Assembly: GCA_946406115.1 (NCBI GenBank)
Contig: OX291561.1
Span: forward strand, 4,208,273-4,272,272
Direction: 5' to 3'
Origin: Apoda limacodes
Lineage: Eukaryota > Arthropoda > Insecta > Lepidoptera > Limacodidae
DNA length: 64,000 bases
Every line of letters starts with the position of its first letter. The stretch's first letter is position 1. Positions 27,603 through 50,003 of this stretch are shown here, one piece after another. The notes under the pieces were generated by a model, which saw only the letters and a program-made list of their open reading frames with translations, did no database searches and was not told the DNA's origin. A program made the position numbers and the translations under genes.

Positions 27603-27769
27603 TAATAGAAAGATTTTACCTACCATTAAAATCCTTATTGTGGTCCTCTCCGGGTTGTGAGAGAGCGTGGTTGTGGATTTGATACATGCACCAGTGTGCA
27701 CCATTTCTTTCCGTCATTGCGTCTCACCAGGTAGGCCTCAATAGGCCCGGAGCCACAATAAGGAACTCC
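27603..27769 (+). repeat. Dispersed unclassified repeat, left of the giant Gypsy insertion
   Basis: It contains 'cttattgtgg', then 'tcctctccgggttgtgagag' and 'ccagtgtgcaccatttcttt'. The same words occur at 50041-50090 (+), just right of the giant element, and at 53497-53805 (-). Relative to the 53.5-kb copy, this one has a large internal gap. The 'ccacaataagg' word at 27753-27763 recurs at 50004. Confidence 0.6.
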
Positions 27770-27773
27770 AGGC
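27770..27773. other. Target-site duplication AGGC (left)
   Basis: AGGC here precedes the left LTR, and AGGC follows the right LTR at 50000-50003. A 4-bp duplication fits Ty3/Gypsy integrases. Confidence 0.75.
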
Positions 27774-30700
27774 TGTAGTACCCCCTCCCATCCTAAAATA
27801 AAATTACTTTATTTACATCTCAAGTGGAGTATACCGACATACTCGCCAATTTGATTATCTGATGGCGTGCGTAATCCTAACATATTATTGTTGCCTTTAT
27901 TATAATAAAAATGTTATTATTAAAGCAAGCTAATATTTTATTTGGCTGTGGTCGTCTAATGGCGTAATCGTCTATTTGGACCCCTCGTTGTGACCGGTAA
28001 TAACCCAAGATCCCAAGAGGTATGAATTCAATCAGTCCCAGGTGTGAAAGAATAAAATCAAAACCCTAATCTTACATTATGCCTACATTAAAGACAATGA
28101 TCTATAACCAATCCTTAGCCGCAAAGCCACTAATTCCTAATTAACATGAGACCAGAATTTAAATTACTAAGTCCGAGTTTACGATCAAAATATATGTGGT
28201 TTATTATTCTAACGTAGTCGGAGTACCTAGGCCTAAATCACCCTATTCACCAACTTAGCTACCTCCCTACAACTCCAGACAAGTCTCGTAATAACAAGGT
28301 TACCCCTTGGACACGATAGGCCATAAAGTTATAACTTTTGATAGTATAGGAATCTTCACTATAAGGATGAAATTCTAAGACCGCCTACCCCTTAAGTGAA
28401 GTCGTAATCTTATAGTAATACATGAGAATCGCCTTAAGGAAGAACTCTTAAACGGTAAGTAGTTCATCAATAATTTCGTTAGCTTCCCTTAAGTAAAATT
28501 GTAACCTCAAAGTAATGTAGGAAGACTGGCTTCCCCTTAACTAAAGTTATGCGCTTATAACAATATATGGAAATAGTTAGAGAGACAGACAGACCTATTT
28601 AGTACCTATTTATTTAAATTATTAGCAGATTCGCTATTAATCCCTTAAATAACCTATAACCTACTTGACTAACCTATCACCAGTTCTCTAGCTTGCCCTT
28701 AAGTTAAGGTATGAACTTATAACAATACATCGAATCGTTAAAACCAGACGGACCTATTTAGTAACTAACCAAATCATTAGCAGATACGCTATTGATCCAT
28801 TAAATAACCTATAAAACTGTAAGGTAATATGAAAGGTCACCGTACGGGTAGACTAACTGATCGTATATATATTTATATATATATATATATATAACACACG
28901 AATATACTCGCTAGCTACCCCTTAAGTAAACTACAAAACCGTCATAATAACACTTAAAAGTGCACCCACGAACGGACCGCTAGGTTTAGTAGTTGCGTAA
29001 ATAATCTGTTAACAACCCGTTAACAATCCCCTGACTGAAATTATAAAGTCGCAATGGTATTCGAGAAGCCGCCCCAAAGACGAATAGACAATCTAAGTAT
29101 ATAAGAAACCCTACCACTATCCTTACCAGCTTCCCTTAGCTGGCTTATAATATTATAATAATATATGGAGAATCACCGTAAAGACGAACTAACAGATTAG
29201 AAGTAAATGTAACCCTGAAATACATCTACAGCCTACCCTTTATAACATAGTCCTAACCGTAGGTATCTAGAAATCCCCATACATTCATGATTATTATTTT
29301 ACCACTGTGGCTCACGCCATCTGTGTAGTAATCGTGGAACTACTCGGTCGATCGATATCTTAGCTAACTGTCTAATAATCTTGGAGACTATGAGGAGGTC
29401 TTATAGAGGGCGCTAAGGGCGGACGATTTAGTATGGAAGTCTACCTAAATCTACCAATCCTAGTTTCCAGGTCGTTTACGGGTAACCCTAACTGGGAATC
29501 ATCCAGGAAAATTCACATATACAACCATTCCTTAAGGGTTCGTAAGTTGTTCTATTCAGAATTGTTGGGCCCGCCACCGAATTATCCCCTCGTCCAATTA
29601 ATGACTAAACGGTCAGACTTTTCGTAAATTTGCCTGTGCATCGAAGTGCCCAGCTGGCGTCTCGTGATCACGTGGGTGCGCAGAGTTCACATTTTAGTCT
29701 TCTGCGCAGATACAGAGTCTAATCGTGTTACTCGACCTTCCTTCGACTAATTTACGTTGGTTCGGTTTTGGTTTAGTATCTCGCGACCCGGTCAATACGA
29801 ATTTCGTTATTAGATCTAAAATTGAGTTTATGTTTACAAACTATGGCGATTATCTACACTAGAATATAAAGTTTATGAAAACAAAACTATAAAATTGAGA
29901 CAAAACCTAACGCTCGCCTAACTTATACCCTAGGTTGTTCCTACTTGATCGCAAAAATGAATATTGAAAATTAATTATGTATAACTTGAATTTGAATAGC
30001 CTTAAGGGCCTAGGGTACCGTCTGGCCTTAAGCGTTTGTCAAATGTATCGTACCTATTATCTGACTGACGTCTTGGAACCTTAAACAAGGAAGGTATATA
30101 ACGACCAACTCCTGACAGACTCGTAGATAGGTTTAATCAAACTAGCTTACCTTGTGGCTTCGCCTTCCTGTCATTTAGTAATTGAGTTAATAAATAACCT
30201 TTATCCTTCGTACACTGTGCCTAAAACTGTTCTTTAGGATAGGTAAGCAGTGCTCCCCGCCAACTCCTACATTTATAACGCTGCGGAGGTGGCAAACAAC
30301 CAGGCGACCATGTATTTATCCTTACTACTATGACTAACTACGGAACTAAAGGGACCATTTCGTTATTATTTGAATATAACCTACGATCGGTCGGTTCGAA
30401 CCCGAGGCTCCTTAAGTTTAAATAGCCGCTAGTCCGGAGAAGCTATACTCGCCCGAAACATATGCCGTGCAAGCTAAGTTCACAAGAAATAATAAAATAG
30501 GTGTGCGATTACGCACATGGTTAAGTGGTAAATTGTTCATCAGAGTAATTAAGGCGACAGAACACCTAGTTTGACACACAATTAGTATGTTTAAGGTGGA
30601 TTGTAAGGAAGACATATCCACACTCAGGACCTGGCGCATTAGCCAGATCAAGTAAGGGTTAGCCCTTTTCTGAGTGTTTAGAACTTAACGTTTCGGCTTT

Positions 30701-33700
30701 CCATACAACAATTCAGAGCCTCATCAGTTAGTAGAGAATTGTGTATGATTATACTAATACGTCTTCAACGGGGTGATTCATGGTGAAGAATAGAACAAAT
30801 CCTGACCCACTAACGTCACCTCATAGTCTGTTAATAAAGTTTGGTCAAGGTTGAAGTTCTGTCATCTTTATCTTAAATGGCTTAGTCAAAACATAACTTA
30901 AACAATATAAAACAATAAAATAAAGATTAGATAGTCTAATTAAAAATTAGACTCGCTAGATTAATGTCGCGGCCCTGAAAAACATATGAGGTTTACGTTT
31001 ATTTTTTACACAGGAACCAATTATTTAAATATGAACACAATAATACTTAGCTTTCCAAATCTATCCGTCACAGTAATGGGTGGAGTGGAGGTTTTATTTA
31101 TAAACGAATTCCTTAAGGAGATCGGGTTAAAAATCCCACATTAAATTTTAGCCGCCCATTACCTAAACGGAATCTAACAGTTCAGCTTCCTTACTCGACG
31201 CCGGTGAAGGGTGGAACTGGAGCCAACCCAGATCTAGGTTTTATCAGCCCCCTCACACCCTTAGATTCCTGAAGCCTGCAGTTAACCTAGCATGTCTCTA
31301 ACATTAAGCCCCGATCTTCCCTAATCTTATAACAAGCCAGACCCCGCTTGAAGAACCCCTACTGTGATTGCCCCGTCCTCACCTACCTCTATCTACCAAG
31401 GGTCTGCTTGCTTTGGGGTCACCCATACCGCAACGCAGCATGACATTGGGATTCAAAACTGTTATGATAATAAATAGTGAACATAAGATAACATTAACAT
31501 AATAGTCAACTTCGTGCAACAATCTCGTATAACTTTAATGAGCGTCTACTAAATCGCGTAGGGTTTCCTTTAATAGGAATTCAAGACAAGGTTCACACTA
31601 GGATCACCTACTCAACATATATATGCACAGCAAGGGCCACACAAGGATTACCCCAGCGAGCCGGTTGGGGAAGCCCCTTCACCTCCGAGTCAGATCAGTG
31701 CGAGTAGCCGCCGCCCAAGGACTCGAATAGGGTTTTATCCAGTGAGGATATCCAAACTCATACACATACGCACTACTAGGAATACACAGGGATTATACAC
31801 TTATACATATATATGCACAGCAAGGGCCACACAAGGATTACCCCAGCGAGCCGGTTGGGAAAGCCCCTTCACCTCCGAGTCAGATCAGTGCGAGTAGCCG
31901 CCGCCCAAGGACTCGAATAGGGTTTTATCCAGTGAGGATATCCAAACTCATACACATACACGCACTACTAGGAATACACAGGGATTATACACTTATACAT
32001 ATATATGCACAGCAAGGGCCACACAAGGATTACCCCAGCGAGCCGGTTGGGGAAGCCCCTTCACCTCCGAGTCAGATCAGTGCGAGTAGCCGCCGCCCAA
32101 GGACTCGAATAGGGTTTTATCCGGTGAGGATATCCAAACTCATACACATACACGCACTACTAGGAATACACAGGGATTATACACTTATACATATATATGC
32201 ACAGCAAGGGCCACACAAGGATTACCCCAGCGAGCCGGTTGGGGAAGCCCCTTCACCTCCGAGTCAGATCAGTGCGAGTAGCCGCCGCCCAAGGACTCGA
32301 ATAGGGTTTTATCCGGTGAGGATATCCAAACTCATACACATACACGCACTACTAGGAATACACAGGGATTATACACTTATACATATATATGCACAGCAAG
32401 GGCCACACAAGGATTACCCCAGCGAGCCGGTTGGGGAAGCCCCTTCACCTCCGAGTCAGATCAGTGCGAGTAGCCGCCGCCCAAGGACTCGAATAGGGTT
32501 TTATCCAGTGAGGATATCCAAACTCATACACATACGCACTACTAGGAATACACAGGGATTATACACTTATACATATATATGCACAGCAAGGGCCACACAA
32601 GGATTACCCCAGCGAGCCGGTTGGGAAAGCCCCTTCACCTCCGAGTCAGATCAGTGCGAGTAGCCGCCGCCCAAGGACTCGAATAGGGTTTTATCCGGTG
32701 AGGATATCCAAACTCATACACATACACGCACTACTAGGAATACACAGATTTACCCTAGCCTTGACCCTAAGCTTAACCGATTTCCTATCTAATCAGATCA
32801 GAGCTTAACTACGGGGTTTTCCTCCCACAAGGTATCACAAAATTTACAACATCATGTTAAAAGACACCGATCCCGGCAGGAACCTTTTACTCCACTAAAT
32901 TTCCTACAGAAATCGGCGATCTCTTTTCCTTAGAGAGTACATAGCCAACAATGACAACAAATTACCTCTGCATTTTTAATAAGTAAGGTTTTTTTCCCTC
33001 CACTTACTCCAAATTTACAACTAAAATCCCGGACTAAATCCTAACCAAAAAGTCAACCACTTTCAATTTTCCCCAACCAACCCTTCACTTTAACCAAGGT
33101 GGCATCTTACACGGTCCCTTACACAGTCCTTACGCCATCGTATAAAGGAAGTCCCTCACAAAACCCCATAGTACAAACCCATCAATAATAAGTTGACATT
33201 GCTAGCCTCAGTTCTCACAAAAGACACTTACTGATATTTGATGTAGGCGAAACGTGCACGGCGCCGGTATTAAATTTCTTCAAATCTTTGTGCGTCCTGT
33301 CCTTCTCGCTTCCTCAGGAATCTCGAGCACGGCCAGCCTCTCGGCACGACGACAGTGAAAAAGGGTGCCGCAACTGACGCCTATCGCTTATAACCGTTCT
33401 CCCCTCCCCCCCGATAGACGCGGCCTGAACGCGTGGCGTGTCTAGAAATTGTGGCGCCAGTTAATTTCTTCTTTATTTTACTTCCACGTGTACCCACGTG
33501 CTCCGCATTTTAGTGGCCACTTACTTTATAGTAATAATCGAACAATCATATCGAAATCGTAAACCGATTCTACTAAACTCTTTACCCGCCGAACTAGCCT
33601 CTCCGCTTCTTTGTGGCTCGATTATACAGCTTCGATTAGTTTACACATTGAAGGCTCGTCGTAAGCGGCGCGGAGCCCACTCTACTATCCCCCTCGCACC

Positions 33701-34128
33701 CTACGACATTTATACCAACTAACTGAAAATAATCGATCGATATTCTCCATATATTTTAACCTCCTGGTTATCTGCTACTTTACGAATCGGTCGTATTTAA
33801 CAAGTAAATATTTTTTTTTTGTGTTGATGATTTTAGGATCCCACTGCGGTTTACGCCTTATGACGTAGGTACAACCATATTAATCGAACCCCGGTGAGGA
33901 CATCCGGGCCACTCACTTACTTCATACTTCATTGATCTCATTTCTATCCATTTATTAGGAGTATTCGATCGGTATGAATTACGAAGGTGATTAATCAAAT
34001 TTATATTTATTATTGATAAATTTCATCTTTAATCTACCTGCTCTCTTAAAACTTAGATTAGCATGTCAACACCGTGTGGTGGGGTCCAGATTACTACAAT
34101 TCTTTATTAACGGCTTGGGTCCACTACA
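27774..34128 (-). repeat. 3' LTR of the giant Gypsy element (6355 bp)
   Basis: Begins TGTAGTACCCCCTCC and ends GGGTCCACTACA in plus-strand sense. It is collinear with 44208-49999. Outside the first ~80 bp I noted about ten substitutions, a 10-bp indel near 29240 and three fewer tandem units in the other copy. It contains six ~191-bp tandem units and a (TA)n tract at about 28862-28892. Small frames inside it (for example 30418-30651 on the minus strand and 33498-33722 on the plus strand) are the same in both LTRs. They have no recognised motif and are not supported as genes. Confidence 0.92.
31617..32748. repeat. Tandem array, six units of 190-192 bp, in the 3' LTR
   Basis: Units start (GCACAGCAAGGGCCACAC) at 31625, 31815, 32007, 32199, 32391 and 32581. 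Each includes a GC-rich part ('gtagccgccgcccaaggac') and an AT-rich part ending 'cttatacatatatat'. The 192-bp period is a multiple of three, which creates a long plus-strand frame (31932-32663). The frame is a by-product of the period. Confidence 0.95.
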
Positions 34129-34143
34129 ATCCTCCCCAACAAG

Positions 34144-35421
34144 TCATAAATGTACACCTATCAGTTGTGACTTGTTTATTAAAGGTATACCCGGCAGGGA
34201 ATCAAGAAGAAACTCAGTCACCAATAGATATCGTTTATTTATATTAACACATTCCCCTTTGAATAATGACCACGAAACAAGTGAATCAAAAATTCTCTCC
34301 CAATAAAGTAAAGAGAACTTTTTTATTTGTTTAAGCATAGCAATAGATTTATTGTGACGACGCACCTTCACTAAATCTCCTATCTGGAAATTCACCAACC
34401 GGTGCGTTCTATCGAAATATTCATTTCGCCTTTTACTAGTTTCCACCAACTTCTCTCTAGCTCTCCTCCTCATTTCCTCTAACTCACTCTCGCTTACCAC
34501 TTCACTAGTCTTCCCATCCATCGCCAACCTCGTCTTCCGACCGTACAATAACTCATTCGGGGTAAACCAAGTACTGAGGTGAAGGGTATTGTTGTACAAA
34601 TCCTCTATCCTCCTTACCTGGTCGACCCACCCCTTGTGATTTTTATGACAATAAGTTCTAAACAGACGCCCTAGTTCTCGATTTACCCTCTCCGTGATAT
34701 TAGGCCGCGGGTTCCTAACCGTGGTGTAGATAGGTCGGATTCCCATCCCCGCTAAAGATTCCTTCCACTCTCTACTAACGAATTGACTACCGTTGTCCGT
34801 CAGAATCATTTTTGGTTTTATAAACCTCCCGTATAGTCTAATTCTAGAAACTACTCCTTTAGCTGTGGCCTTCCTTAGTTCGAATAACTTCAGATATTTG
34901 CTGAAACTATCCTGTACTACTAGTAAATAACTTAATCCATACTTCCCCTTGGGCAGAGGCCCGTACAAATCTGCCATTACTACATCTCCTATCTCCCCAG
35001 GTAGAATGGATTTACAGCTCCCGATTAAGTTCACGTTGTTTGGTTTAGACAATTGGCAAATATGACATCTCGATATCACCTCCTTTACGCGTCTTCGTAA
35101 GTTCGGCCAATAATATCTGTCGCGCATTAGTTTTACTGTTTTCAGAGCCCCTAAGTGGCCCATTTCCGTATGCACTTGCAATATCACCCTCTCTTGTAAA
35201 ACACAAGGTAAAAATGGTACCTCCCTATTTCTCCCCGAACCCACAAAGCACAATACTCCATCTATTATTCGACTCAAACCCCCAATTTGCTTCAGCCTAC
35301 CAGTGGCGGCCCCTCGCCCTTCCACTTGCTCTCTCAACAGTCGCAACAAAGGGTCCTCCGCCTGATACTCGCACAAACGGGTTAGATCGCTCCTCAACTC
35401 CCGGTCCAGTGTTACTCCCAT
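34144..35421 (-). CDS. Gypsy integrase, 425 aa, as a separate ORF
   Basis: This integrase would splice the reverse-transcribed DNA into the genome. The zinc-binding HHCC module is intact (H84, H89, C119, C122 within VHTEMGHLGALKTVKLM and ISRCHICQLSK). The catalytic core has D151 (VVMADLYGP), D209 (ILTDNGSQF) and E244 (NITERVNREL), with the 34-residue D-to-E gap typical of retroviral-type integrases. A basic C-terminal DNA-binding segment follows (GDLVKVRRHNKSIAM), with no chromodomain visible. The ATG at 35421 lies 20 nt after the RT-RNase H stop, in the +1 frame, and an in-frame TAA occurs 12 nt upstream, so it is not open to the pol ORF. In Gypsy elements integrase is normally part of Pol, so either this copy has a lesion at the junction or the family expresses integrase separately. 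The stop is 16 bp from the 3' LTR. Confidence 0.9.
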   Translation of the reverse strand: MGVTLDRELRSDLTRLCEYQAEDPLLRLLREQVEGRGAATGRLKQIGGLSRIIDGVLCFVGSGRNREVPFLPCVLQERVILQVHTEMGHLGALKTVKLMRDRYYWPNLRRRVKEVISRCHICQLSKPNNVNLIGSCKSILPGEIGDVVMADLYGPLPKGKYGLSYLLVVQDSFSKYLKLFELRKATAKGVVSRIRLYGRFIKPKMILTDNGSQFVSREWKESLAGMGIRPIYTTVRNPRPNITERVNRELGRLFRTYCHKNHKGWVDQVRRIEDLYNNTLHLSTWFTPNELLYGRKTRLAMDGKTSEVVSESELEEMRRRAREKLVETSKRRNEYFDRTHRLVNFQIGDLVKVRRHNKSIAMLKQIKKFSLLYWERIFDSLVSWSLFKGECVNINKRYLLVTEFLLDSLPGIPLINKSQLIGVHL

Positions 35422-35440
35422 ATAACTAATTTACGGGACC

Positions 35441-37741
35441 TTAAACTTTGTCCTCCTGGATGGATACCCCCTCCGGCAAGTACCTGGATAACACATCGGC
35501 AACCAGGTTATCCTTCCCCTTTATGTGTTCCATAGTATAATCAAACTGCTCTAAAAACAGAACCCAACGAGTAACCCTACTATTAAACAGCCGACAGGAT
35601 TTCATAAAAGTTAATGCTTTATGGTCAGTCCGTATAATCACCTTTGCGCCTCGTAAATAAGTCTCGAATTTCTTTATCCCATATATAACAGCCCATAGTT
35701 CTTGTTCGGTAACGGTCCACCTCAATTCCGCTCCTCTCAACGACCTGCTACAATACCCCAGAACCTTCATATCCTCTCCCTGGCCCTGGTATAGCACCCC
35801 AGCAACCCCTACCCCCGAACTGTCTACCTGCAGAATATATGGAGATCCTATATCAGGGTGGTGTAACCTAATTGTACTCATGAAGGCCCCCTTCAGCCCT
35901 TCGAACGCTTCTCGAGCCGACATATCCCACCTCCAATGTATTCTCTTCCCTAGTAAACTACACAAAGGCCTTATTAATTCGCTGTAACGCGGAATAAACC
36001 GGCGATAATAATTACAAAGCCCTAAAAACGCCCTTAAGTGTTTTATCTTCTTAGGCGCTGGGAAATCCCTAATGGCTTCCAATTTCTGTGGGTTAGTCCG
36101 GATGCCCTCAGTGTCGATTATGTGCCCTAACATTTTCACCTCTGCGCATACAAACCTACATTTGGACAAGTTGCAAGTTAGGCCGGCTTTGCGCAATCGA
36201 CCCAATACGACATCAAGGTGACCCAAGTGTTCCTGCAAATCACCACTAGTAAGGATAGCCAGATCATCCAAATAATTGACACAAAACGTCCTAACCTCTT
36301 GCCCCAATATCCTATCCATTGCCCGACTAAAACTACCAACCGACGTTTTCAGCCCTTGCGGTAGAACATTATAGACATAAGATTTTCCATTTAATGTGAA
36401 CCCAGTGTATCTTTTACTGCCCTCGGCCAGGGGAATCTGAAAGTAGGCGTTGTTAAGGTCAATGGTGCTGATAAAACGTACCCCATGAAAGGAGTTTAAC
36501 ACATCTAATTGAACCGGAGGGGCTTCAGACTCCGCTATCATAACTTTATTTATCTCCCTAGCATCTAACAAAACCCGTAGATCCCCATCAGACTTGAATC
36601 TAAAAGTAAGTGGACTACAATACGGAGTGGAAGCTCGGGAGATGATCCCTTGTTTCTCCATTTGTCCCAGTTTCCTCCCCATCTGGTCTCGATAAGCGTA
36701 CGGAACTGGATAAGATCTTTTCATCACAGGTTCCTCCGATTTCATGATAATAGTATGTTCATAACAGTTAGCGCGTCCCAACTCCCCCGTAAAAAGATCC
36801 TTGTACTTCACTATAACTCCCTTAAATAGAGCCCTTCCTACGTGGCCAATCTCCAACCCGACAAGTATGTTTTCTTCGAGTTTATCCGGGTGCAAGGCGG
36901 GAGCTCCCACCAAAGGACTAACCGACGAAACGCAGTTAATCTCTCGGTTTCCCAGAACCAACGAAACCTCCTCTCCATCAATTGTTATAGTAATTACTAC
37001 CCTCGTGGGCCCCATTTTTAGTATCACCCCATGAAGGCGCATCCAATCAAATCCTAAAATTACCGGCCTTATTAATTTCGGGACTATTAGGAAAGGAGAA
37101 TCAAGTCGATGTTTCCCTAGTATTAGAGGTAAAACCACAGCCTTTTGAATTTTCGAACTACGTTGACCCAACGCCCCTCTGATCTGTAAGCATCTTATCG
37201 GAACTACCGCCATATCTGTCCTGTCCTTATGTCTAAATACAAATTCTTCGCTGACACAAGTGATATCGCTACCAGTATCTAAGAGGCAATCGACCCATTC
37301 CTCCCATATATTCACTTTCATCTCACATTTTAAGACTTCCCCCTCGCATCCCGCTGCTCCCTCCTCTTCCTCGAACACTGAATTCACCCCGGGTGTGACC
37401 CTAACACTCAGAGGCCCTAGTCCTTCATTAGCCTTATCTAACAACCTATCTCTCACTCCGACGACTGGATCGGACAACACATCATCGTTACGAAAACCGA
37501 GACCCTGAGTCGTGGTCTGCCCCTTTAAAATTATTGGTCTAAGTATACCGTTACCTCTCCCTAACCCCAAACCAGGCAACCACCCTACATCCAACATTTG
37601 CCTTAAAGGAAGAAATAACTTTAATTCCAATTCCCCTGAGTAACGAGCTGAGTAGGGGATAGAATCGTCAGCTCTTAATAGTTTTCCAAAGGAGTCCCCT
37701 CCATTCCTGAGTTTAATTCCATTACACGCGGCATCTGGCAT
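35441..37741 (-). CDS. Gypsy Pol: G-patch, protease, reverse transcriptase, RNase H (766 aa)
   Basis: Domains in order: a G-patch-like motif at about residues 50-84 (GWLPGLGLGRGNGILRPI then TTTQGLGF); an aspartic protease with LLDTGSDITC at about 154-162 and ILGFDWM at 228; reverse transcriptase with LLDAREINKV (391), STIDLNNAYFQIPL (425), LPQGLKTSVGSFSRAMD (460) and the catalytic YLDD at 490-493; the Gypsy connection AFLGLCNYYRRFIP (571); and RNase H with D640 (LQVDSSGVG), E681 (TVTEQELWAV) and D706 (RTDHKAL). All key acidic residues are present. The frame is open upstream of the ATG at 37741 and overlaps the gag end. It is offset +1 from gag, so Pol is probably made by ribosomal frameshifting instead of at this ATG. 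It ends at TAA, 20 nt before the integrase ATG. Confidence 0.93.
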   Translation of the reverse strand: MPDAACNGIKLRNGGDSFGKLLRADDSIPYSARYSGELELKLFLPLRQMLDVGWLPGLGLGRGNGILRPIILKGQTTTQGLGFRNDDVLSDPVVGVRDRLLDKANEGLGPLSVRVTPGVNSVFEEEEGAAGCEGEVLKCEMKVNIWEEWVDCLLDTGSDITCVSEEFVFRHKDRTDMAVVPIRCLQIRGALGQRSSKIQKAVVLPLILGKHRLDSPFLIVPKLIRPVILGFDWMRLHGVILKMGPTRVVITITIDGEEVSLVLGNREINCVSSVSPLVGAPALHPDKLEENILVGLEIGHVGRALFKGVIVKYKDLFTGELGRANCYEHTIIMKSEEPVMKRSYPVPYAYRDQMGRKLGQMEKQGIISRASTPYCSPLTFRFKSDGDLRVLLDAREINKVMIAESEAPPVQLDVLNSFHGVRFISTIDLNNAYFQIPLAEGSKRYTGFTLNGKSYVYNVLPQGLKTSVGSFSRAMDRILGQEVRTFCVNYLDDLAILTSGDLQEHLGHLDVVLGRLRKAGLTCNLSKCRFVCAEVKMLGHIIDTEGIRTNPQKLEAIRDFPAPKKIKHLRAFLGLCNYYRRFIPRYSELIRPLCSLLGKRIHWRWDMSAREAFEGLKGAFMSTIRLHHPDIGSPYILQVDSSGVGVAGVLYQGQGEDMKVLGYCSRSLRGAELRWTVTEQELWAVIYGIKKFETYLRGAKVIIRTDHKALTFMKSCRLFNSRVTRWVLFLEQFDYTMEHIKGKDNLVADVLSRYLPEGVSIQEDKV

Positions 37742-38663
37742 TAGGCAATCGATTTGACCCAGGTCTAGTAAAATTCTTTCTTGCTTCGGGGCGATTATAC
37801 CTCCAGTTCCCTTTATCCCCAGATGGACTATTGTGTATTGGCCTCGCCTTAGATCCTCCCGTGCCCTCTAGAAGCCCCTTCTGCTTATCTATATTGTCCA
37901 GTCTCCTCAAAAAACTGGTAGCTTTCAACAACCCGAATCCTTCTTCTCTAGCCACCGTCCAAGCGTACTGCACTTCCTTGGAAAAGTGTCGTATAATGTC
38001 TGCCACCAATTGTTGCTCCGGAATGGCATATGTCAACATTTTAGCCTGTCCAGTCAAGTGTAAGAAATGTCCTAGCATCGTAGGGTGAGTCTTCCGGTCC
38101 CAAACGGACTGCACTATGTCCCTTCTCAATGCATTTTGTTCATTTTCTCCCCAATATGTATCCAAGAAGTCCTTCTTAAAGTCCTCCAGAGACCCCCACG
38201 TCTCTCTATACACCCGAGCCCAATTTCTCGCCTCCCCCTCCAAACAGTCAAAAATTCCGTCTATTTCATGGTCCTTAGAAGGAATTCTCTTCAGGTAATA
38301 CGTCAAATTTTCAATGAAGGTTACCGGATGCAATTTCTCAGGTGTGCTAAACTTGGGCCGCTCCACCCCCCCATACTTGTACATAGCACCCACTTGATCG
38401 CAGCACTTTATTGCCACCTCATTAACCGACGGGGGCGTTACATCGGTAAGTGGCTCGGGATTAGGAAGTGGATGGCTGATTGAGGGGGGCCCTGGCTCTA
38501 CAACCAATTCGATCCTGTCACCTAACCTTTTCTCTAACTCTTGTATCTGCTTGGTTAAATCCGCAATGGTCTGTTTATAGCTTTCGTTAGTCGCTCTGAG
38601 ATCCTCACTATCACTGTTCTCGTCATCGCTCCCCTTAGCTTGTCGTTTTCTAGGACGTCCCAT
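37722..38663 (-). CDS. Gypsy Gag, about 313 aa
   Basis: I start it at the ATG at 38663 (MGRPRKRQAKGSDDENSD). The frame is open about 20 codons further upstream but has no ATG there. A basic N-terminus is followed by a coiled-coil-like segment (YKQTIADLTKQIQELEKRLGD region), a Pro-rich linker and the retrotransposon Gag/capsid fold (ETWGSLEDFKKDFLDTYW, VWDRKTHPTMLGHFLHL, PEQQLVADIIRHF). Gag forms the particle that packages element RNA. No CCHC zinc knuckle is visible at the C-terminus (KGNWRYNRPEARKNFTRPG); basic residues may replace it. The end overlaps the upstream-open Pol frame. Confidence 0.88.
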   Translation of the reverse strand: MGRPRKRQAKGSDDENSDSEDLRATNESYKQTIADLTKQIQELEKRLGDRIELVVEPGPPSISHPLPNPEPLTDVTPPSVNEVAIKCCDQVGAMYKYGGVERPKFSTPEKLHPVTFIENLTYYLKRIPSKDHEIDGIFDCLEGEARNWARVYRETWGSLEDFKKDFLDTYWGENEQNALRRDIVQSVWDRKTHPTMLGHFLHLTGQAKMLTYAIPEQQLVADIIRHFSKEVQYAWTVAREEGFGLLKATSFLRRLDNIDKQKGLLEGTGGSKARPIHNSPSGDKGNWRYNRPEARKNFTRPGSNRLPNARCRV

Positions 38664-39119
38664 GATTCTCCTTTCCAAAATTCTCTCGATAACCGTGCGC
38701 ACCTTCCGCGAACTCTGTAACAAACCAAGACGAATGTCTGGGTAAGACCCTAACCTTATTTCCTCCTATCCTAATTCCTAACAGGGCTTTAATAACCTAA
38801 CTTGGCCTACGACCTAACCCATGGTGGCTTAACAAACCATAACCAAAAATTCCTCATTTAGATAGAGAATGGAACCTCATAGTAATCACTCGAGATAGAA
38901 CGTGTGAATGGGTTAATAATAAAAGATGGCGTTCTCTCAAGACTATTGTCCTATGGGGCAGCTAGAACGATACAGCAGCCGGGAGAAAAAGGAGAGGAAA
39001 AAAAAATAAACCCTATTGGCCCCCTCACCCTCAACTGGCAACCACTCAAGAACTCACCCAGTTGAAACAAAAGTAAGTCCCTGCAGCTCTTTAACAAGAA
39101 GCACCAGATTTAATCGATA

Positions 39120-40000
39120 GTTATGAAGAATATAGTAGTTCGAAAAAGGTAATGATGGTCGGAAGCCAACAATTGAGGTAGTCCACTATTAGCCGTAGGT
39201 AATCAGGACGGATATGACAGACATGTTTCGGTTAAGGACCAAGGGCCTCACTCAACCTCGGCTCGTCATGATAGATATAGTAGTCTCAATATAGCAATTA
39301 TGTTTGGACACTAAGGTTGAGTTTGCCCATTCGATGACGTTCGGAAGCAAACAGTTGAGTTTGTCCATTATTAGCCGTAGGCAATTATGATAGATATAGT
39401 AGCTAGAAGGTGGCGATGACGTTTGGACGCAAACAGTTGAGTTTGTCCATTCGATGACGTTCGGAAGCAAACAGTTGAGTTTGTCCATTATTAGCCGTAG
39501 GCAATTATGATAGATATAGTAGCTAGAAGGTGGCGATGACGTTTGGACGCAAACAGTTGAGTTTGTCCATTCGATGACGTTCGGAAGCAAACAGTTGAGT
39601 TTGTCCATTGTTAGCCGTAGGCAATTATGATAGATATAGTAGCTAGAAGGTGGCGATGACTTTTGGACGCAAACAGTTGAGTTTGTCCATTCGATGACGT
39701 TCGGAAGCAAACAGTTGAGTTTGTCCATTATTAGCCGTAGGCAATTATGATAGATATAGTAGTTGGAAGGTGGCGATGATGTTTGGATGCAAACAATTGA
39801 GTTTGTCCATTCGATGATGTTCGGAAGCAAACAGTTAAGTTTGCCCACTACCAGCCGTAGGTAATTAGAACGGATATGACGGACATGCTTCGGTTAAGGA
39901 CCAAGGGCCTCACTCAATCTAGGCTTGTTATGATGGATATGCTTCGATTAAGGACCAAGGGCCTCACTCAACCTCCGCTTGTCGTGATAGTTATAGTAGG
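39120..40000. repeat. Tandem array, 120-bp units, in the Gypsy leader
   Basis: About four close copies (39360-39840) and several diverged units at the edges repeat the words 'gcaaacagttgagtttgtcc', 'gccgtaggcaattatgatag' and 'gaaggtggcgatgacgt'. Half-units of about 55 bp are also visible. As 120 is a multiple of three, the minus strand shows a 40-residue repeating frame (39252-39848), which I take as a by-product. Confidence 0.9.
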
Positions 40001-40159
40001 TTAAATATGGCGATAATGTTAGAGGGTTGTTTATTTAATGATATTAAGAAACAAATATTAAATTGTTATCAGCAACTATAAGAACCGGTTGTGAAATTTC
40101 GAACCTTGTGTAATAATGCTGATACTAGAGCGGCCTAACCCCATACCCCGAATATCCCC

Positions 40160-40980
40160 CTCCTCCCCTTAACTACTCACCCACCATTCAGGTTAAGTCT
40201 GACTTCCACTAACGACATATACTTATGTATGTATACCTACATACACCTATACAACCATACACCGAAAGCGGTCCATCAAAAACAGTAGTTGTCGAAACAT
40301 TAAGACCCAACTGAATCTCACAAGGCAAATTTGTAAGGGCTGCCACACCCACGTATCCAAAGCCATTTCATTGATATATCCAACAACTCACTATATTTTT
40401 TTTTTTTTTTTTTTTTTTCCACGTCTTAAACACATCTCCAGCATAACACCTTTTGCTTCTTCAGTTAAGGACCTGACTCTCCCACCATTAAGGCAGGGCC
40501 CGACCTCAACTTCGACACATATACACATGTATGCATACCACTATGTATACACACACATAGACACGTACCGCCCGCGGTCACTCAGGGATCGTACTTGCCG
40601 AAACATTACGACTCCCTGCAACTCACACGGCAAAAATCTCAGGGGTTACACTAACCATGTATAAAAAACCCAAAATCATTTCAATTCAGGCCCTAACAAC
40701 TTACAATCTTTACTCGCGACGATTTAAACACATCCCCAGCATAACCCTTTTCGCTCTTTCAGTTAAGGACCTGACTCTCCCACCATTAAGGCAGGGCCCG
40801 ACCTCAACTTCGACACATATACACATGTATGCATACTGCTATGTATACACACACATAGACACGTACCGCCCGCGGTCACTCAGGGATCGTACTTGCCGAA
40901 ACATTACGACCCCCTGCAACTCACACGGCAAAAATCTCAGGGGTTACACTAACCATGTATAAAAACCCAAAATCATTTCA
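40160..40980. repeat. Tandem array, about 298-bp period, in the Gypsy leader
   Basis: Two close copies start near 40426 and 40724 (shared words 'cagttaaggacctgactctc', 'gcccgacctcaacttcgac', 'cgcggtcactcagggatcg'), ending near 40680 and 40980. An older, diverged copy precedes them from about 40185. The T-run at 40397-40418 lies between the old and the newer copies. Confidence 0.85.
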
Positions 40981-43552
40981 TTTGTTCCTCGTACCAAATT
41001 AAATAATAACCTTGTCCTACTCGGCTGGGTTTTATAATTTTGTCTTAGTTTCACATCTACATAGCAGGTAATAGTATCTATCCACGGTCTAGCTCACTTC
41101 CCATCTTACGCTGAACCTAATTTATATATATATATATATATATGACATGCGAATCCTAATTCTGAATAAACGTTAATGCAGTTCAATAAACATTTATTAT
41201 GTTGACCCCTCCCCTAATAACTCAGCAATTTATCCTATGGTACCCTCCCCTCTCGTAATGTACCTTTTATTTCTGTTAATGTACCTTTCTATAACTGCCC
41301 TTAACATGACTACACTAACAAAACCGGTCCCTAACCTAGGCCAATGTGTTTAATCTCAGACATCAACCTCATTTCTCAATTGCTACTTATCGCCTACTCG
41401 ACAGAACCCTTTGAACATATAATACCTATTAACAATAACCTATTTAGTTCAAAGGAACACGCTACCAGGCATAGCCGACCTGAACACCACCTAATACCTG
41501 CCATTATCCTATCTTACCTTTAAGTACGTCAAATTTCCTAATCAGAGATGTATATATTTATATACATTGTGAGTGTTTATTCACACTGTCAATCTATCAC
41601 TTTTAAAGATGGTACCACAGTAGGCTAAAACCGGTTGACTTTACCGGTCCGCCTAGTAATAAAATATTTATCGACAATCAAAATGTAATATAATTTGGCA
41701 AGCAAAAACATGAGTCAAAAGTATCCTAAAATTTGAATCTAATAGCCAATGAACGGTAACAGCGAATCGATAAAAGATGATCTAACAAAAGGTCCCCACC
41801 TAATGTCCACATTAGATCGCACCGAATCAACCCAGACAGCTCCGTCGGCCAAACACCTCACGCCCGCCCCGAGACCCCGAGCAACCCCGAGTTCAAACCC
41901 CCGCTCGGCGGACACTTTTTTTTTGTTGGGCTTCTTTAGATTATATCATTTGTTACAAATTTTCCTTTTAAATAGTTATACTATTAAACTAACAAGTACA
42001 TATAGTCGCTTTAACGCCTACTGTTTACTTTGTTAAGATTACCTTCTACCAGTCATGAATCTTCCCGTTGGAGGAAGTTCACCGAGTCTAAGGGCTTAAC
42101 AGACGTTACCGCCAAATGAAACAGCTATTAGACGTTCGTACTTTGGAATAGTCTTTTAACTAAAACCTCTAAACCGGTAATTATACATATACCCGGATAT
42201 GTCTAAATGGCTCATTGAGATGATCCCAACTTACTAAGTCAGCGCTACTTAGTATAAAATTAAAGAACTGGGATGGATGAGGGCCTCTTTCAGCTAATAT
42301 CTTAGTGACTTTACGACCTTACTTCGGCACTAACATTCCAAATGCTCGCTATCCCGACTCTCAATGCATTCCCTAAACATAGATGAACTCACTCTAATTC
42401 ATCAACACTAAGGTGATACATTAACGCTGCACTCTACTTCAATGTACAGTTTTCTGCTCGGTTTTAAAATCGATTCCACTGTCCTTTAGCAAGTTCCAAA
42501 CCGAAAATATCATGGCCTTCTACATTCTTTGACTAGCAGATTACTGTATTTGGTTTCGCGGTTTCTGTCCAAAACACATTTTTTTTTTTTTTTAAGAAAA
42601 TTACGGCCGAATTTCTCATTTTCTATTTTTAATTCATAACTCACTATCAACAAGTAGCGAGAACATAATTTATTTCATGACGTGTTAAGTAACCTCAAAG
42701 CTAGAAAATTGCTGTAATTTAAATTTTATATCGCATGTGACGTAACTGCATTCAAATATTTCGCCCCCTTCACGCTAAGTTGTATGTCTATCTATAATAT
42801 ATTTACGCCACTGGAAAATGAGCTCTATTTGAAACTAACATTGTCGACTCCCACTCCACACCCGTAAAGCAAGGGTATATGCGCGTTGAGGCCCTCTTAA
42901 ATCCTTGTTATTTTATTATGTCCTTTCCCTCCCCGAGCATATAAGACCTTTATTCCACAGTGCCTCCCCCCCTCTAAATAATAATTCTACGTATATAGGC
43001 AGTTCATTAAGGCCACCCTAACTATACTGTTCTCTAACCTATGTCCGTACGGTAATACGCCTCGCGACAGGCCACTAAAGTCCCTAAGGGGGTTCCTCCT
43101 TTTATAAATAGTACGGCTAACTCCTCCACTCTATCAGTGGACAAGTTCAAAAATCCTCCCATAAAACACCTGCGAATTCATATACTTATCCACATCTACT
43201 TACGCACACATATACGTACAAACCAACACTCACAAGTTTATTCGAAATGCACTCGCAACTTATTCAGGACGTACCCTCGTACCACGTTAAAATTTGTCAA
43301 GTTCTAAATTATTGAATTATGCTAGAATGTAGTTAAACTGATTTTTTTTCTATTGGTCACCTCCCGCGAAGGAGAGAGAAGGAAACAGCCCACGCCTCGC
43401 CTTACCGACCCAAATTTTCAATCTACCCACCCCAAGAAAACTAGATATAGTTAACCTTACACCTTCTTTAGTAGTTGGTTTTTTCTTGTATCCGACGGAC
43501 TCGCCTTTTGTTAATTCCTTCCTAACATTGAAAAAGACAAGTCGGAACCGAA

Positions 43553-43930
43553 ATGGCCCGTACCAGGACCATGATCTTCAAGGACGCCCCCCACCCCCGG
43601 GTAGTGGAAGGAAGGGCCTCAGAATTAATTATTTTTTCGGACGGGACTCTTCGCAGCTTCCGCGATGTTCAGCCTGAAATTCCTACCCTTCCTCCCCCAT
43701 CGGATTTGAACGTGATCCACACCAGTGGCTGTCCTGTGGTCCCTGATGAGTCCCTTCACCTCGACGTCGGCAGTGGTCCACCACCATCGGAACCCCACCC
43801 ACCCCTTCTGCTCCCGGTAAGCCGTTGGACAAAAAAGAGGAGGCGTCGAAGTCGGCACAAGAAGAATGGAGGGCATCACCGGGGGGTAGTGCGCTTGCCT
43901 AGCTACCTCCGACCCCAATCTTATAATTAA
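43553..43930 (+). CDS. Opposite-strand ORF in the Gypsy leader, 125 aa, unknown
   Basis: The ATG at 43553 has good initiation context (accgaaATGG) and opens a stop-free 125-codon frame opposite to gag-pol. The product is Pro-rich in the middle (IPTLPPPSDL, GSGPPPSEPHPPLLLPVS) and carries a strongly basic tract near the end (RWTKKRRRRSRHKK) that could be a nuclear localisation or RNA-binding signal. I recognise no family. The region is less AT-rich than the rest of the leader, which supports coding. A shorter frame on the other strand (43625-43918) competes. It may be an antisense accessory protein of the element or a captured fragment. Confidence 0.4.
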   Translation: MARTRTMIFKDAPHPRVVEGRASELIIFSDGTLRSFRDVQPEIPTLPPPSDLNVIHTSGCPVVPDESLHLDVGSGPPPSEPHPPLLLPVSRWTKKRRRRSRHKKNGGHHRGVVRLPSYLRPQSYN

Positions 43931-44207
43931 ACCGTTTATATTTTTTCGTAATATATTTGAATTCGACCATGGGGGGTTTTTTTTTTTTTATATCCCTGTC
44001 TGCCGACAGCCCTTGAGAACCAGAATAACGTTGATCTCTGTCTACTCCTTTTTAGAATAATAGCTTTGGGTATGAATCTTAATCTTTCTTCCCCGGTTCT
44101 TTTCAAATCCATTTTAATGACCTCCCATCCGTTGTACGACAACAAAATGTAGGCTTTTACAAGCCTCTTTTAGTTCTATATCCTATCCTGGTAACGGCAA
44201 CACATAA

Positions 44208-47200
44208 TGTAGTACCCCCTCCTCTACAAAAATAAAATTATTTATTTTTAAATTCAAGTGGAGTATAATGACATACTCGCCAGTTTGATTATCTGATGGC
44301 GTGCGTAATCCTAACATATTATTGTTGCCTTTATTATAATAAAAATGTTATTATTAAAGCAAGCTAATATTTTATTTGGCTGTGGTCGTCTAATGGCGTA
44401 ATCGTCTATTTGGACCCCTCGTTGTGACCGGTAATAACCCAAGATCCCAAGAGGTATGAATTCAATCAGTCCCAGGTGTGAAAGAATAAAATCAAAACCC
44501 TAATCTTACATTATGCCTACATTAAAGACAATGATCTATAACCAATCCTTAGCCGCAAAGCCACTAATTCCTAATTAACATGAGACCAGAATTTAAATTA
44601 CTAAGTCCGAGTTTCCGATCAAAATATATGTGGTTTATTATTCTAACGTAGTCGGAGTACCTAGGCCTAAATCACCCTATTCACCAACTTAGCTACCTCC
44701 CTACAACTCCAGACAAGTCTCGTAATAACAAGGTTACCCCTTGGACACGATAGGCCATAAAGTTATAACTTTTGATAGTATAGGAATCTTCACTATAAGG
44801 ATGAAATTCTAAGACCGCCTACCCCTTAAGTGAAGTCGTAATCTTATAGTAATACATGAGAATCGCCTTAAGGAAGAACTCTTAAACGGTAAGTAGTTCA
44901 TCAATAATTTCGTTAGCTTCCCTTAAGTAAAATTGTAACCTCAAAGTAATGTAGGAAGACTGGCTTCCCCTTAACTAAAGTTATGCGCTTATAACAATAT
45001 ATGGAAATAGTTAGAGAGACAGACAGACCTATTTAGTACCTATTTATTTAAATTATTAGCAGATTCGCTATTAATCCCTTAAATAACCTATAACCTACTT
45101 GACTAACCTATCACCAGTTCTCTAGCTTGCCCTTAAGTTAAGGTATGAACTTATAACAATACATCGAATCGTTAAAACCAGACGGACCTATTTAGTAACT
45201 AACCAAATCATTAGCAGATACGCTATTGATCCATTAAATAACCTATAAAACTGTAAGGTAATATGAAAGGTCACCGTACGGGTAGACTAACTGATCGTAT
45301 ATATATTTATATATATATATATATATAACACACGAATATACTCGCTAGCTACCCCTTAAGTAAACTACAAAACCGTCATAATAACACTTAAAAGTGCACC
45401 CACGAACGGACCGACAGGTTTAGTAGTTGCGTAAATAATCTGTTAACAACCCGTTAACAATCCCCTGACTGAAATTATAAAGTCGCAATGGTATTCGAGA
45501 AGCCGCCCCAAAGACGAATAGACAATCTAAGTATATAAGAAACCCTACCACTATCCTTACCAGCTTCCCTTAGCTGGCTTATAATATTATAATAATATAT
45601 GGAGAATCACCGTAAAGACGAACTAACAGATTAGAAGTAAATGTAACCCTGAAATACATCTACAGCCTACCCTTTAGATAAAGTTATAACATAGTCCTAA
45701 CCGTAGGTATCTAGAAATCCCCATACATTCATGATTATTATTTTACCACTGTGGCTCACGCCATCTGTGTAGTAATCGTGGAACTACTCGGTCGATCGAT
45801 ATCTTAGCTAACTGTCTAATAATCTTGGAGACTATGAGGAGGTCTTATAGAGGGCGCTAAGGGCGGACGATTTAGTATGGAAGTCTATCTAAATCTACCA
45901 ATCCTAGTTTCCAGGTCGTTTACGGGTAACCCTAACTGGGAATCATCCAGGAAAATTCACATATACAACCATTCCTTAAGGGTTCGTAAGTTGTTCTATT
46001 CAGAATTGTTGGGCCCGCCACCGAATTATCCCCTCGTCCAATTAATGACTAAACGGTCAGACTTTTCGTACATTTGCCTGTGCATCGAAGTGCCCAGCTG
46101 GCGTCTCGTGATCACGTGGGTGCGCAGAGTTCACATTTTAGTCTTCTGCGCAGATACAGAGTCTAATCGTGTTACTCGACCTTCCTTCGACTAATTTACG
46201 TTGGTTCGGTTTTGGTTTAGTATCTCGCGACCCGGTCAATACGAATTTCGTTATTAGATCTAAAATTGAGTTTATGTTTACAAACTATGGCGATTATCTA
46301 CACTAGAATATAAAGTTTATGAAAACAAAACTATAAAATTGAGACAAAACCTAACGCTCGCCTAACTTATACCCTAGGTTGTTCCTACTTGATCGCAAAA
46401 ATGAATATTGAAAATTAATTATGTATAACTTGAATTTGAATAGCCTTAAGGGCCTAGGGTACCGTCTGGCCTTAAGCGTTTGTCAAATGTATCGTACCTA
46501 TTATCTGACTGACGTCTTGGAACCTTTAACAAGGAAGGTATATAACGACCAACTCCTGACAGACTCGTAGATAGGTTTAATCAAACTAGCTTACCTTGTG
46601 GCTTCGCCTTCCTGTCATTTAGTAATTGAGTTAATAGATAACCTTTATCCTTCGTACACTGTGCCTAAAACTGTTCTTTAGGATAGGTAAGCAGTGCTCC
46701 CCGCCAACTCCTACATTTATAACGCTGCGGAGGTGGCAAACAACCAGGCGACCATGTATTTATCCTTACTACTATGACAAACTACGGAACTAAAGGGACC
46801 ATTTCGTTATTATTTGAATATAACCTACGATCGGTCGGTTCGAACCCGAGGCTCCTTAAGTTTAAATAGCCGCTAGTCCGGAGAAGCTATACTCGCCCGA
46901 AACATATGCCGTGCAAGCTAAGTTCACAAGAAATAATAAAATAGGTGTGCGATTACGCACATGGTTAAGTGGTAAATTGTTCATCAGAGTAATTAAGGCG
47001 ACAGAACACCTAGTTTGACACACAATTAGTATGTTTAAGGTGGATTGTAAGGAAGACATATCCACACTCAGGACCTGGCGCATTAGCCAGATCAAGTAAG
47101 GGTTAGCCCTTTTCTGAGTGTTTAGAACTTAACGTTTCGGCTTTCCATACAACAATTCAGAGCCTCATCAGTTAGTAGAGAATTGTGTATGATTATACTA

Positions 47201-49999
47201 ATACGTCTTCAACGGGGTGATTCATGGTGAAGAATAGAACAAATCCTGACCCACTAACGTCACCTCATAGTCTGTTAATAAAGTTTGGTCAAGGTTGAAG
47301 TTCTGTCATCTTTATCTTAAATGGCTTAGTCAAAACATAACTTAAACAATATAAAACAATAAAATAAAGATTAGATAGTCTAATTAAAAATTAGACTCGC
47401 TAGATTAATGTCGCGGCCCTGAAAAACATATGAGGTTTACGTTTATTTTTTACACAGGAACCAATTATTTAAATATGAACACAATAATACTTAGCTTTCC
47501 AAATCTATCCGTCACAGTAATGGGTGGAGTGGAGGTTTTATTTATAAACGAATTCCTTAAGGAGATCGGGTTAAAAATCCCACATTAAATTTTAGCCGCC
47601 CATTACCTAAACGGAATCTAACAGTTCAGCTTCCTTACTCGACGCCGGTGAAGGGTGGAACTGGAGCCAACCCAGATCTAGGTTTTATCAGCCCCCTCAC
47701 ACCCTTAGATTCCTGAAGCCTGCAGTTAACCTAGCATGTCTCTAACATTAAGCCCCGATCTTCCCTAATCTTATAACAAGCCAGACCCCGCTTGAAGAAC
47801 CCCTACTGTGATTGCCCCGTCCTCACCTACCTCTATCTACCAAGGGTCTGCTTGCTTTGGGGTCACCCATACCGCAACGCAGCATGACATTGGGATTCAA
47901 AACTGTTATGATAATAAATAGTGAACATAAGATAACATTAACATAATAGTCAACTTCGTGCAACAATCTCGTATAACTTTAATGAGCGTCTACTAAATCG
48001 CGTAGGGTTTCCTTTAATAGGAATTCAAGACAAGGTTCACACTAGGATCACCTACTCAACATATATATGCACAGCAAGGGCCACACAAGGATTACCCCAG
48101 CGAGCCGGTTGGGGAAGCCCCTTCACCTCCGAGTCAGATCAGTGCGAGTAGCCGCCGCCCAAGGACTCGAATAGGGTTTTATCCAGTGAGGATATCCAAA
48201 CTCATACACATACGCACTACTAGGAATACACAGGGATTATACACTTATACATATATATGCACAGCAAGGGCCACACAAGGATTACCCCAGCGAGCCGGTT
48301 GGGGAAGCCCCTTCACCTCCGAGTCAGATCAGTGCGAGTAGCCGCCGCCCAAGGACTCGAATAGGGTTTTATCCAGTGAGGATATCCAAACTCATACACA
48401 TACACGCACTACTAGGAATACACAGGGATTATACACTTATACATATATATGCACAGCAAGGGCCACACAAGGATTACCCCAGCGAGCCGGTTGGGGAAGC
48501 CCCTTCACCTCCGAGTCAGATCAGTGCGAGTAGCCGCCGCCCAAGGACTCGAATAGGGTTTTATCCGGTGAGGATATCCAAACTCATACACATACACGCA
48601 CTACTAGGAATACACAGATTTACCCTAGCCTTGACCCTAAGCTTAACCGATTTCCTATCTAATCAGATCAGAGCTTAACTACGGGGTTTTCCTCCCACAA
48701 GGTATCACAAAATTTACAACATCATGTTAAAAGACACCGATCCCGGCAGGAACCTTTTACTCCACTAAATTTCCTACAGAAATCGGCGATCTCTTTTCCT
48801 TAGAGAGTACATAGCCAACAATGACAACAAATTACCTCTGCATTTTTAATAAGTAAGGTTTTTTTCCCTCCACTTACTCCAAATTTACAACTAAAATCCC
48901 GGACTAAATCCTAACCAAAAAGTCAACCACTTTCAATTTTCCCCAACCAACCCTTCACTTTAACCAAGGTGGCATCTTACACGGTCCCTTACACAGTCCT
49001 TACGCCATCGTATAAAGGAAGTCTCTCACAAAACCCCATAGTACAAACCCATCAATAATAAGTTGACATTGCTAGCCTCAGTTCTCACAAAAGACACTTA
49101 CTGATATTTGATGTAGGCGAAACGTGCACGGCGCCGGTATTAAATTTCTTCAAATCTTTGTGCGTCCTGTCCTTCTCGCTTCCTCAGGAATCTCGAGCAC
49201 GGCCAGCCTCTCGGCACGACGACAGTGAAAAAGGGTGCCGCAACTGACGCCTATCGCTTATAACCGTTCTCCCCTCCCCCCCGATAGACGCGGCCTGAAC
49301 GCGTGGCGTGTCTAGAAATTGTGGCGCCAGTTAATTTCTTCTTTATTTTACTTCCACGTGTACCCACGTGCTCCGCATTTTAGTGGCCACTTACTTTATA
49401 GTAATAATCGAACAATCATATCGAAATCGTAAACCGATTCTACTAAACTCTTTACCCGCCGAACTAGCCTCTCCGCTTCTTTGTGGCTCGATTATACAGC
49501 TTCGATTAGTTTACACATTGAAGGCTCGTCGTAAGCGGCGCGGAGCCCACTCTACTATCCCCCTCGCACCCTACGACATTTATACCAACTAACTGAAAAT
49601 AATCGATCGATATTCTCCATATATTTTAACCTCCTGGTTATCTGCTACTTTACGAATCGGTCGTATTTAACAAGTAAATATTTTTTTTTTTGTGTTGATG
49701 ATTTTAGGATCCCACTGCGGTTTACGCCTTATGACGTAGGTACAACCATATTAATCGAACCCCGGTGAGGACATCCGGGCCACTCACTTACTTCATACTT
49801 CATTGATCTCACTTCTATCCATTTATTAGGAGTATTCGATCGGTATGAATTACGAAGGTGATTAATCAAATTTATATTTATTATTGATAAATTTCATCTT
49901 TAATCTACCTGCTCTCTTAAAACTTAGATTAGCATGTCAACACCGTGTGGTGGGGTCCAGATTACTACAATTCTTTATTAACGGCTTGGGTCCACTACA
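44208..49999 (-). repeat. 5' LTR of the giant Gypsy element (5792 bp)
   Basis: Collinear copy of 27774-34128, shorter mainly because it has three tandem units instead of six. It carries a 10-bp insertion near 45680. One of the few substitutions (near 46070) changes the TAA that ends a 64-codon plus-strand frame in the other LTR, so the frame here runs to 105 codons (45877-46194). That instability argues against the frame being a gene. It should contain the element's promoter, but I could not place a start site. Confidence 0.92.
48061..48620. repeat. Tandem array, three units of 190-192 bp, in the 5' LTR
   Basis: Same unit as in the other LTR, starting at 48069, 48259 and 48451. Confidence 0.95.
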
Positions 50000-50003
50000 A
50001 GGC
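50000..50003. other. Target-site duplication AGGC (right)
   Basis: Matches AGGC at 27770-27773 on the other side of the giant element. Confidence 0.75.

Follow-up and report, generated by a model that had tools for sequence, protein, structure and literature searches.

A probable Ty3/Gypsy-type retrotransposon of Apoda limacodes whose LTRs span about 6 kb and carry a candidate hammerhead ribozyme

Long terminal repeats (LTRs) that reach about 6 kb are, to our knowledge, extreme for an animal Gypsy element, and they pose the question of how repeats of such length are copied while staying identical. Two repeats of this size are found in a 64,000-nt stretch of Apoda limacodes DNA (contig OX291561.1, positions 4,208,273 to 4,272,272), which is here called the window and to which all coordinates refer. 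The original prediction took them to be the LTRs of a young Ty3/Gypsy element on the minus strand, and the present analysis arrives at the same view: with a probability of roughly 0.93, judged from the sequence, the locus represents one recent insertion of a Ty3/Gypsy-type LTR retrotransposon with giant LTRs, about 22.2 kb in all. New in this work are a candidate hammerhead ribozyme in both LTRs, a cluster of LTR differences within the unique 5' region (U5), the absence of a recognisable primer site, and a leader of about 5.5 kb that carries tandem arrays.

Ends and coding region of the element

Comparison of the window with itself displays the element as two direct repeats forming one long pair, and alignment places their borders exactly where they had been predicted. 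The features that define the ends are:

44208-49999, minus strand, 5' LTR, paired repeat of 5792 bp, TGTAGT...ACTACA
27774-34128, minus strand, 3' LTR, paired repeat of 6355 bp, TGTAGT...ACTACA
27770-27773, no strand, left AGGC target duplication, abutting the repeat end
50000-50003, no strand, right AGGC target duplication, abutting the repeat end
34130-34137, minus strand, polypurine tract GGGGAGGA, separated from the 3' LTR by one base

Read on the plus strand, both repeats start with TGTAGTACCCCC and end with GGGTCCACTACA. The TG...CA ends, the AGGC on both outer sides and the polypurine tract had all been part of the original prediction, and all are found in place. A match of 4 bp alone has a chance of 1/256, yet this one is placed exactly at the repeat ends. 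Short LTRs nested inside the long repeats, in other copies, had been named as one arrangement that would speak against giant LTRs; the self-comparison of the window gives no sign of them. Outside the AGGC, the 12-mer CCACAATAAGGA flanks the insertion on both sides (27741-27773 and 50000-50020), and the insertion target may thus have been a small host repeat.

The interior between the LTRs amounts to 10.1 kb, and its coding part is found in three stop-free frames of the minus strand (38765-37725, 37867-35444, and 35430-34147). It contains the following open reading frames (ORFs) and domains:

37722-38663, minus strand, gag-like ORF counted from the first ATG, in the stop-free frame 37725-38765, with a weak Retrotrans_gag match
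37496-37597, minus strand, possible G-patch domain upstream of the protease (PF01585, E 0.006-0.012, 15.9-16.9 bits, below the cut-off of 22)
35441-37867, minus strand, frame for protease (PR), reverse transcriptase (RT), and RNase H, overlapping gag and +1 relative to it, with the motifs DTGS, YLDD, and TDH
34144-35421, minus strand, integrase (IN) ORF with an H2C2 zinc finger and a D-D-E core, in a frame different from that of RT

The Pfam domains recognised on this strand are RVP, RVT_1, RNase H, Integrase_H2C2, and rve, and the resulting order PR-RT-RNase H-IN is that of Ty3/Gypsy elements, though IN is encoded in a separate frame. A gag-pol-integrase region had been predicted here; its pol part is borne out by both domains and motifs, while gag is only weakly recognised and the integrase does not continue the pol frame. 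When the RT frame was searched against the PDB, 205 distinct sequences were matched, and among the best 60 of the 205, which were listed, the top two are 4ol8 (E 1.5e-59), which we take to be a Ty3 RT, and the Ty3-G polyprotein 7q5b (E 3.7e-59). The probable Ty3/Gypsy placement of the RT is based on these top matches among those listed. The integrase matches the foamy-virus (PFV) integrase 3l2q (E 2.4e-21) and Ty3-G 7q5b (E 2e-15). As for gag, the ten PDB chains listed (E up to 10) include six of Arc, a derivative of a Gypsy gag, with E 0.05 to 0.7, which again is weak recognition. The possible G-patch sits between this gag, which is without a zinc knuckle, and the protease. There is no room for an env gene between the integrase ORF and the 3' LTR, which are separated by 15 bases (34129-34143).

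It is the combination of a TG...CA LTR pair, the AGGC duplication, the purine tract, and the order of the gag-like, PR, RT, RNase H, and IN regions that leads to the assignment as a Ty3/Gypsy-type LTR element.

LTR divergence, leader and rival explanations

The alignment of the two LTRs comprises 5756 matches, 25 substitutions (11 transitions and 14 transversions), and gaps of 10, 192, 382, and 1. The gaps of 192 and 382 together have the length of roughly three 192-bp units of a tandem array. Divergence is 25 of 5781 aligned bases, or 0.0043 by the Kimura two-parameter distance, which supports a recent insertion, in agreement with the youth claimed for the element. At an insect substitution rate near 3e-9 per site and generation, the 0.19% divergence found outside the U5 tail described below leads us to infer an insertion age of a few hundred thousand generations. 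Places at which the LTRs differ include:

31615-32747, no strand, 192-bp tandem array in the 3' LTR, 5.9 copies
48059-48617, no strand, 192-bp tandem array in the 5' LTR, 2.9 copies
27774-27849, minus strand, U5 tail of the 3' LTR with 14 of the 25 LTR differences; its partner is 44208-44283

The substitutions are unevenly distributed. More than half of them (14/25) crowd into the last 76 bp of U5, with a binomial P of 2e-20 for this stretch, which was picked post hoc. There they occupy 27789-27849 versus 44223-44283, and no difference is seen in the outermost 15 bp; the other 11 are spread over about 5,705 bp (0.19%). In the 5' LTR the cluster adjoins the expected primer site. Ordinary reverse transcription makes both LTRs alike, so the cluster needs another cause. 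Gene conversion from another copy is possible, as is repair of a heteroduplex by the primer site after two different RNAs had been copied, or a polishing error in the assembly.

When it comes to the origin of the LTR length, internal repeats of at least 40 bp cover 820 of the 5792 bp of the 5' LTR. Tandem growth hence accounts for part of the LTR size only, and most of the extra length is not derived from internal repeats. The sense strand of the LTR has no ORF beyond chance (longest 88 aa versus a shuffle mean of 91), and the longest on the other strand is 162 aa (shuffle mean 99, maximum 175); the LTRs look non-coding. A 243-aa ORF on the plus strand (31932-32663) was considered as an LTR-encoded protein and rejected: it sits within the 192-bp array, the unit length of which is divisible by three, and PAC3, the sole Pfam family matched, reaches 19 bits and falls below the cut-off of 21.2.

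The leader is likewise rich in repeats:

38664-44207, minus strand, leader of about 5.5 kb before the first ATG of gag, with no convincing coding sequence
39268-39867, no strand, 120-bp tandem array in the leader, 5 copies
40426-40980, no strand, 298-bp tandem pair in the leader

It also holds a 54 bp array, and internal repeats of at least 40 bp cover 1709 of the 5442 bp at 38766-44207. On its sense strand a stop-free stretch of 213 residues exceeds all 200 shuffles (maximum 165); it lies inside the 120-bp array, the period of which is a multiple of three. In all, 30 stop-free stretches of at least 80 aa are found in the LTRs and the interior, and 28 of them were scanned together against Pfam, the other two, the frames of PR-RT-RNase H and of IN, having been covered as ORFs. 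Eight families were matched in this joint scan at E up to 0.01, with one member each (PAC3 at E 0.0003 in one stretch), and no transposon family is among them. A 198-aa ORF of the leader (39252-39848) was set aside as well. Nearly all of it falls within the 120-bp array, and its six Pfam matches, of which one, Phage_Treg, is above the cut-off (27.8 versus 25 bits), were judged to be repeat artefacts because no stretch passes alone and the families are unrelated.

Several observations weigh against the assignment. The gag match to Pfam Retrotrans_gag has E 0.017 and falls below the cut-off, a motif check found no CCHC knuckle in gag or pol, and a structure model of gag made from the single sequence was unreliable (pLDDT, the predicted local distance difference test, 41.9) and was not used. 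The integrase ATG is found 19 bases past the stop codon of the RT-RNase H frame, in another frame, so this copy may fail to make integrase normally, or may depend on an unusual route of expression. No TGG-type tRNA primer site is present within 80 nt after the 5' LTR, the first TGG being at +81 in the 120 nt examined. Nor do the LTR and the 40 nt that directly follow it share an exact complement of at least 9 nt, as self-priming might employ. A scan with bacterial settings found no tRNA gene in the window. Self-matches above 100 bp disclose no second copy of the family in the window. Searches by protein or LTR pattern in viral and prokaryotic collections (viral contigs, genome contigs, and phages, the last searched with the 5' LTR only) gave no relatives, which says little about an insect element.

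Some of these points would suit a quite different explanation, namely that the repeats are not LTRs but host DNA duplicated, in the genome or during assembly, around an ordinary Gypsy interior. The unusual length of the repeats, their internal tandem arrays, and the lack of a recognised primer site are what such a duplication would have in its favour. It would, however, have to produce repeat ends that coincide with TGTAGT and ACTACA, with AGGC on the outer sides, and with the purine tract, and the 25 substitutions and the difference in array length oppose one sequence having been assembled twice. A segmental or assembly duplication was rejected on these grounds, as the ends, the target duplication, and the purine tract coincide and the copies differ, and it is considered very improbable. 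Less easily dismissed, though still unlikely, is that an ordinary Gypsy element had its ancestral LTR enlarged by inserted mobile DNA, which was then copied to both ends, so that the giant LTRs would be an accident of one subfamily. The LTR, which looks mostly non-coding and of which internal repeats explain 820 of 5792 bp, leaves room for such an event; the stop-free stretches of the LTR, on the other hand, contain no recognisable nested element or transposon domain, and no sense ORF goes beyond chance. Old or non-coding insertions would evade both of these tests. The single Ty3/Gypsy-type element with giant LTRs thus stands as the best explanation of the locus.

Candidate hammerhead ribozyme and a possible mechanism

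A motif running from CTGATGAG to CGAAAC was spotted by eye in the LTR before any scan had been written, and it corresponds to one candidate in each LTR:

47127-47209, minus strand, candidate type III hammerhead of the 5' LTR, expected to be cleaved between 47202 and 47201
30683-30765, minus strand, candidate hammerhead of the 3' LTR, identical to the first and expected to be cleaved between 30758 and 30757

A type III hammerhead is defined by CUGANGA, GAA, and NUH around three helices. The candidate has all of these, with helices I, II, and III of 6, 4, and 5 bp and the cleavage triplet GUA. A descriptor for types I and III finds two places in the window only, which are the two LTRs on the sense strand, and gave one match in 60 simulated windows. 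A type III scan of both strands of 800 simulated 64-kb windows gave six matches with loose and none with strict helix limits; the strict limits were fixed at the observed lengths after the motif had been seen, the simulated windows are order-2 Markov sequences, and the present window is the sole real animal DNA in the control. Furthermore, the two 18-nt loops are complementary, with a pairing energy of -13.2 kcal/mol that was matched by 11 of 5000 base-shuffled loop pairs. Natural hammerheads form tertiary contacts between these loops.

The comparison with Rfam is less favourable. Its E-value mode was applied to the 5' LTR, to a 171-base stretch, and to the interior of the element. In the 5' LTR, Hammerhead_3 (RF00008) is matched on the sense strand with 17.6 bits (E 6.9 over all families), and it is the top of three matches to the 171 bases with 18.5 bits (E 0.11), which falls short of the gathering score of 48.5 bits; at gathering score Rfam has no match anywhere in the window. 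The accompanying matches, NCRUPAR_2 in the 5' LTR and TB10Cs5H3 and isrP in the 171 bases, are far under the Rfam cut-off and were judged to be chance, as were two low matches in the interior at E up to 10. The hammerhead pattern has no match in the viral contig collection.

The motif could therefore also be a chance match in an ordinary hairpin, without any role, and such a reading retains a substantial, if smaller, share of the probability. It gains from the low Rfam scores, and from the minimum-energy fold of the 83 nt, a long hairpin of -17.0 kcal/mol as against -6.9 kcal/mol for the hammerhead helices without loop pairing. The triplet is GUA instead of the common GUC, the motif was noticed by eye before it was scanned for, and the first scan matched once in 60 simulated windows. 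A chance hairpin does not, however, readily account for the restriction of the strict pattern, absent from all 800 simulated windows, to the sense strand of the two LTRs, or for loop-loop pairing where natural hammerheads form tertiary contacts. An unfavourable predicted fold has a parallel in plant retrozymes, where predicted folds likewise have the hammerhead blocked within a long arm (PMC4918200). On balance, the sequence and the predicted pairing make a real hammerhead somewhat more likely than not, and the candidate ribozyme may help to shape the RNA of the element.

In the mechanism proposed, RNA would be transcribed from the 5' LTR and then reverse transcribed by the element's own RT, strand transfer would yield both full LTRs before integration, and the integrase would insert the copy at a target cut with a 4-bp stagger. 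The candidate hammerhead, being present in both LTRs on the sense strand, could trim the ends of the transcript, and if cleavage is inefficient it may do so for part of the transcripts only. A more speculative course is that cleavage following sense position 2798 in the 5' LTR, together with cleavage at the equivalent site in the 3' LTR, would release a unit of 16,444 nt. This unit would carry the equivalent of one LTR, split into a 5' part of 2,994 nt and a 3' part of 3,371 nt, and if it were circularised the RT could copy a whole LTR without a jump between copies of the repeated region (R). An autonomous animal Ty3/Gypsy element working like a giant retrozyme, with its transcript cut and circularised, is regarded as decidedly improbable. 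Were it true, it would fit the absent canonical primer site, and the limits on LTR length and primer placement could relax.

Surroundings and comparison with known systems

The window holds other repeats and transposon remains. A copia-type remnant of about 2.9 kb in total (22732-25589) has 195-bp direct repeats, 97.9% identical, around a copia gag domain (Retrotran_gag_2). At 15715-16250 an adjacent tandem duplication of 268 bp is 99.6% identical, and at 52692-53043 an imperfect palindrome that spans about 350 bp and is 75% self-complementary is possibly similar to a miniature inverted-repeat transposable element. The ORFs at 6825-8084, 54533-55213, 57017-57814, and 58810-59421 match RVT_1, DDE_1, DUF5641, and Dimer_Tnp_hAT, of which we take DUF5641 to be Pao/BEL-like and DDE_1 pogo-like, and together they indicate a transposon-rich host. 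These four families and Retrotran_gag_2 are compatible with an animal host, though none of them points to an insect in particular.

Among coding elements, the errantiviruses are insect Gypsy elements that bear env, whereas here 15 bases separate the integrase ORF from the 3' LTR. As for yeast Ty3, its Ty3-G polyprotein is one of the two sequences that head the PDB matches to the RT frame (E 3.7e-59). The pol frame of the present element is shifted by +1 from gag, and Ty3 is known for a +1 frameshift of its own; the LTRs of Ty3, in contrast, are a few hundred bases long, compared with about 6 kb here. Plant elements of the Ogre/Tat type reach about 22 kb and have LTRs of several kb and long non-coding stretches, and all of these traits are shared with the present element. 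Ogre, however, has an extra ORF upstream of gag, where the leader here offers the 213-residue stop-free stretch in the array only, and Tat-type elements have a second RNase H, while one RNase H region was found here.

LTRs of this size had been described in the original prediction as mainly a plant trait, a claim that is weakened by two animal elements which are nearest in kind. Woot of Tribolium castaneum is reportedly a gypsy-class element with 3.6-kb LTRs and a 5 kb interior; as an insect element of Gypsy type it would likewise lack env and have LTRs of unusual length, differing in LTR length (3.6 kb as against 5.8-6.4 kb) and interior (5 kb as against 10.1 kb). Burro is said to be a giant Gypsy element of planarians, thus likewise a giant of this type in an animal, and is likened here by description.

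When it comes to the candidate ribozyme, the comparison is with hammerhead-bearing repeats. As described in PMC4918200, plant retrozymes are non-coding and have LTRs of about 350 bp with a type III hammerhead in each, 4-bp target duplications, a tRNA-Met primer site, and a polypurine tract at the LTR. Common to these and to the present element are hammerheads in the LTRs (candidates here), a 4-bp target duplication, and a polypurine tract at the LTR, whereas the element here encodes gag-pol, its LTRs measure about 6 kb, and it shows no recognised primer site. Retrozyme RNAs are without R, and reverse transcription as circles is proposed as the most plausible model for them (PMC4918200); a unit cut by the hammerheads here would likewise lack R. 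For metazoan hammerhead repeats the paper gives type I in many cases and a spacing of 150-400 bp, with no primer site or polypurine tract detected except for a full tRNA-Gln in schistosome repeats (PMC4918200). An animal Gypsy element that encodes proteins and has type III hammerheads in LTRs of 6 kb would thus resemble neither the plant retrozymes nor the metazoan repeats in full, and if its hammerheads are active it would link a protein-coding animal LTR retrotransposon to the ribozyme-bearing retrozymes of plants.

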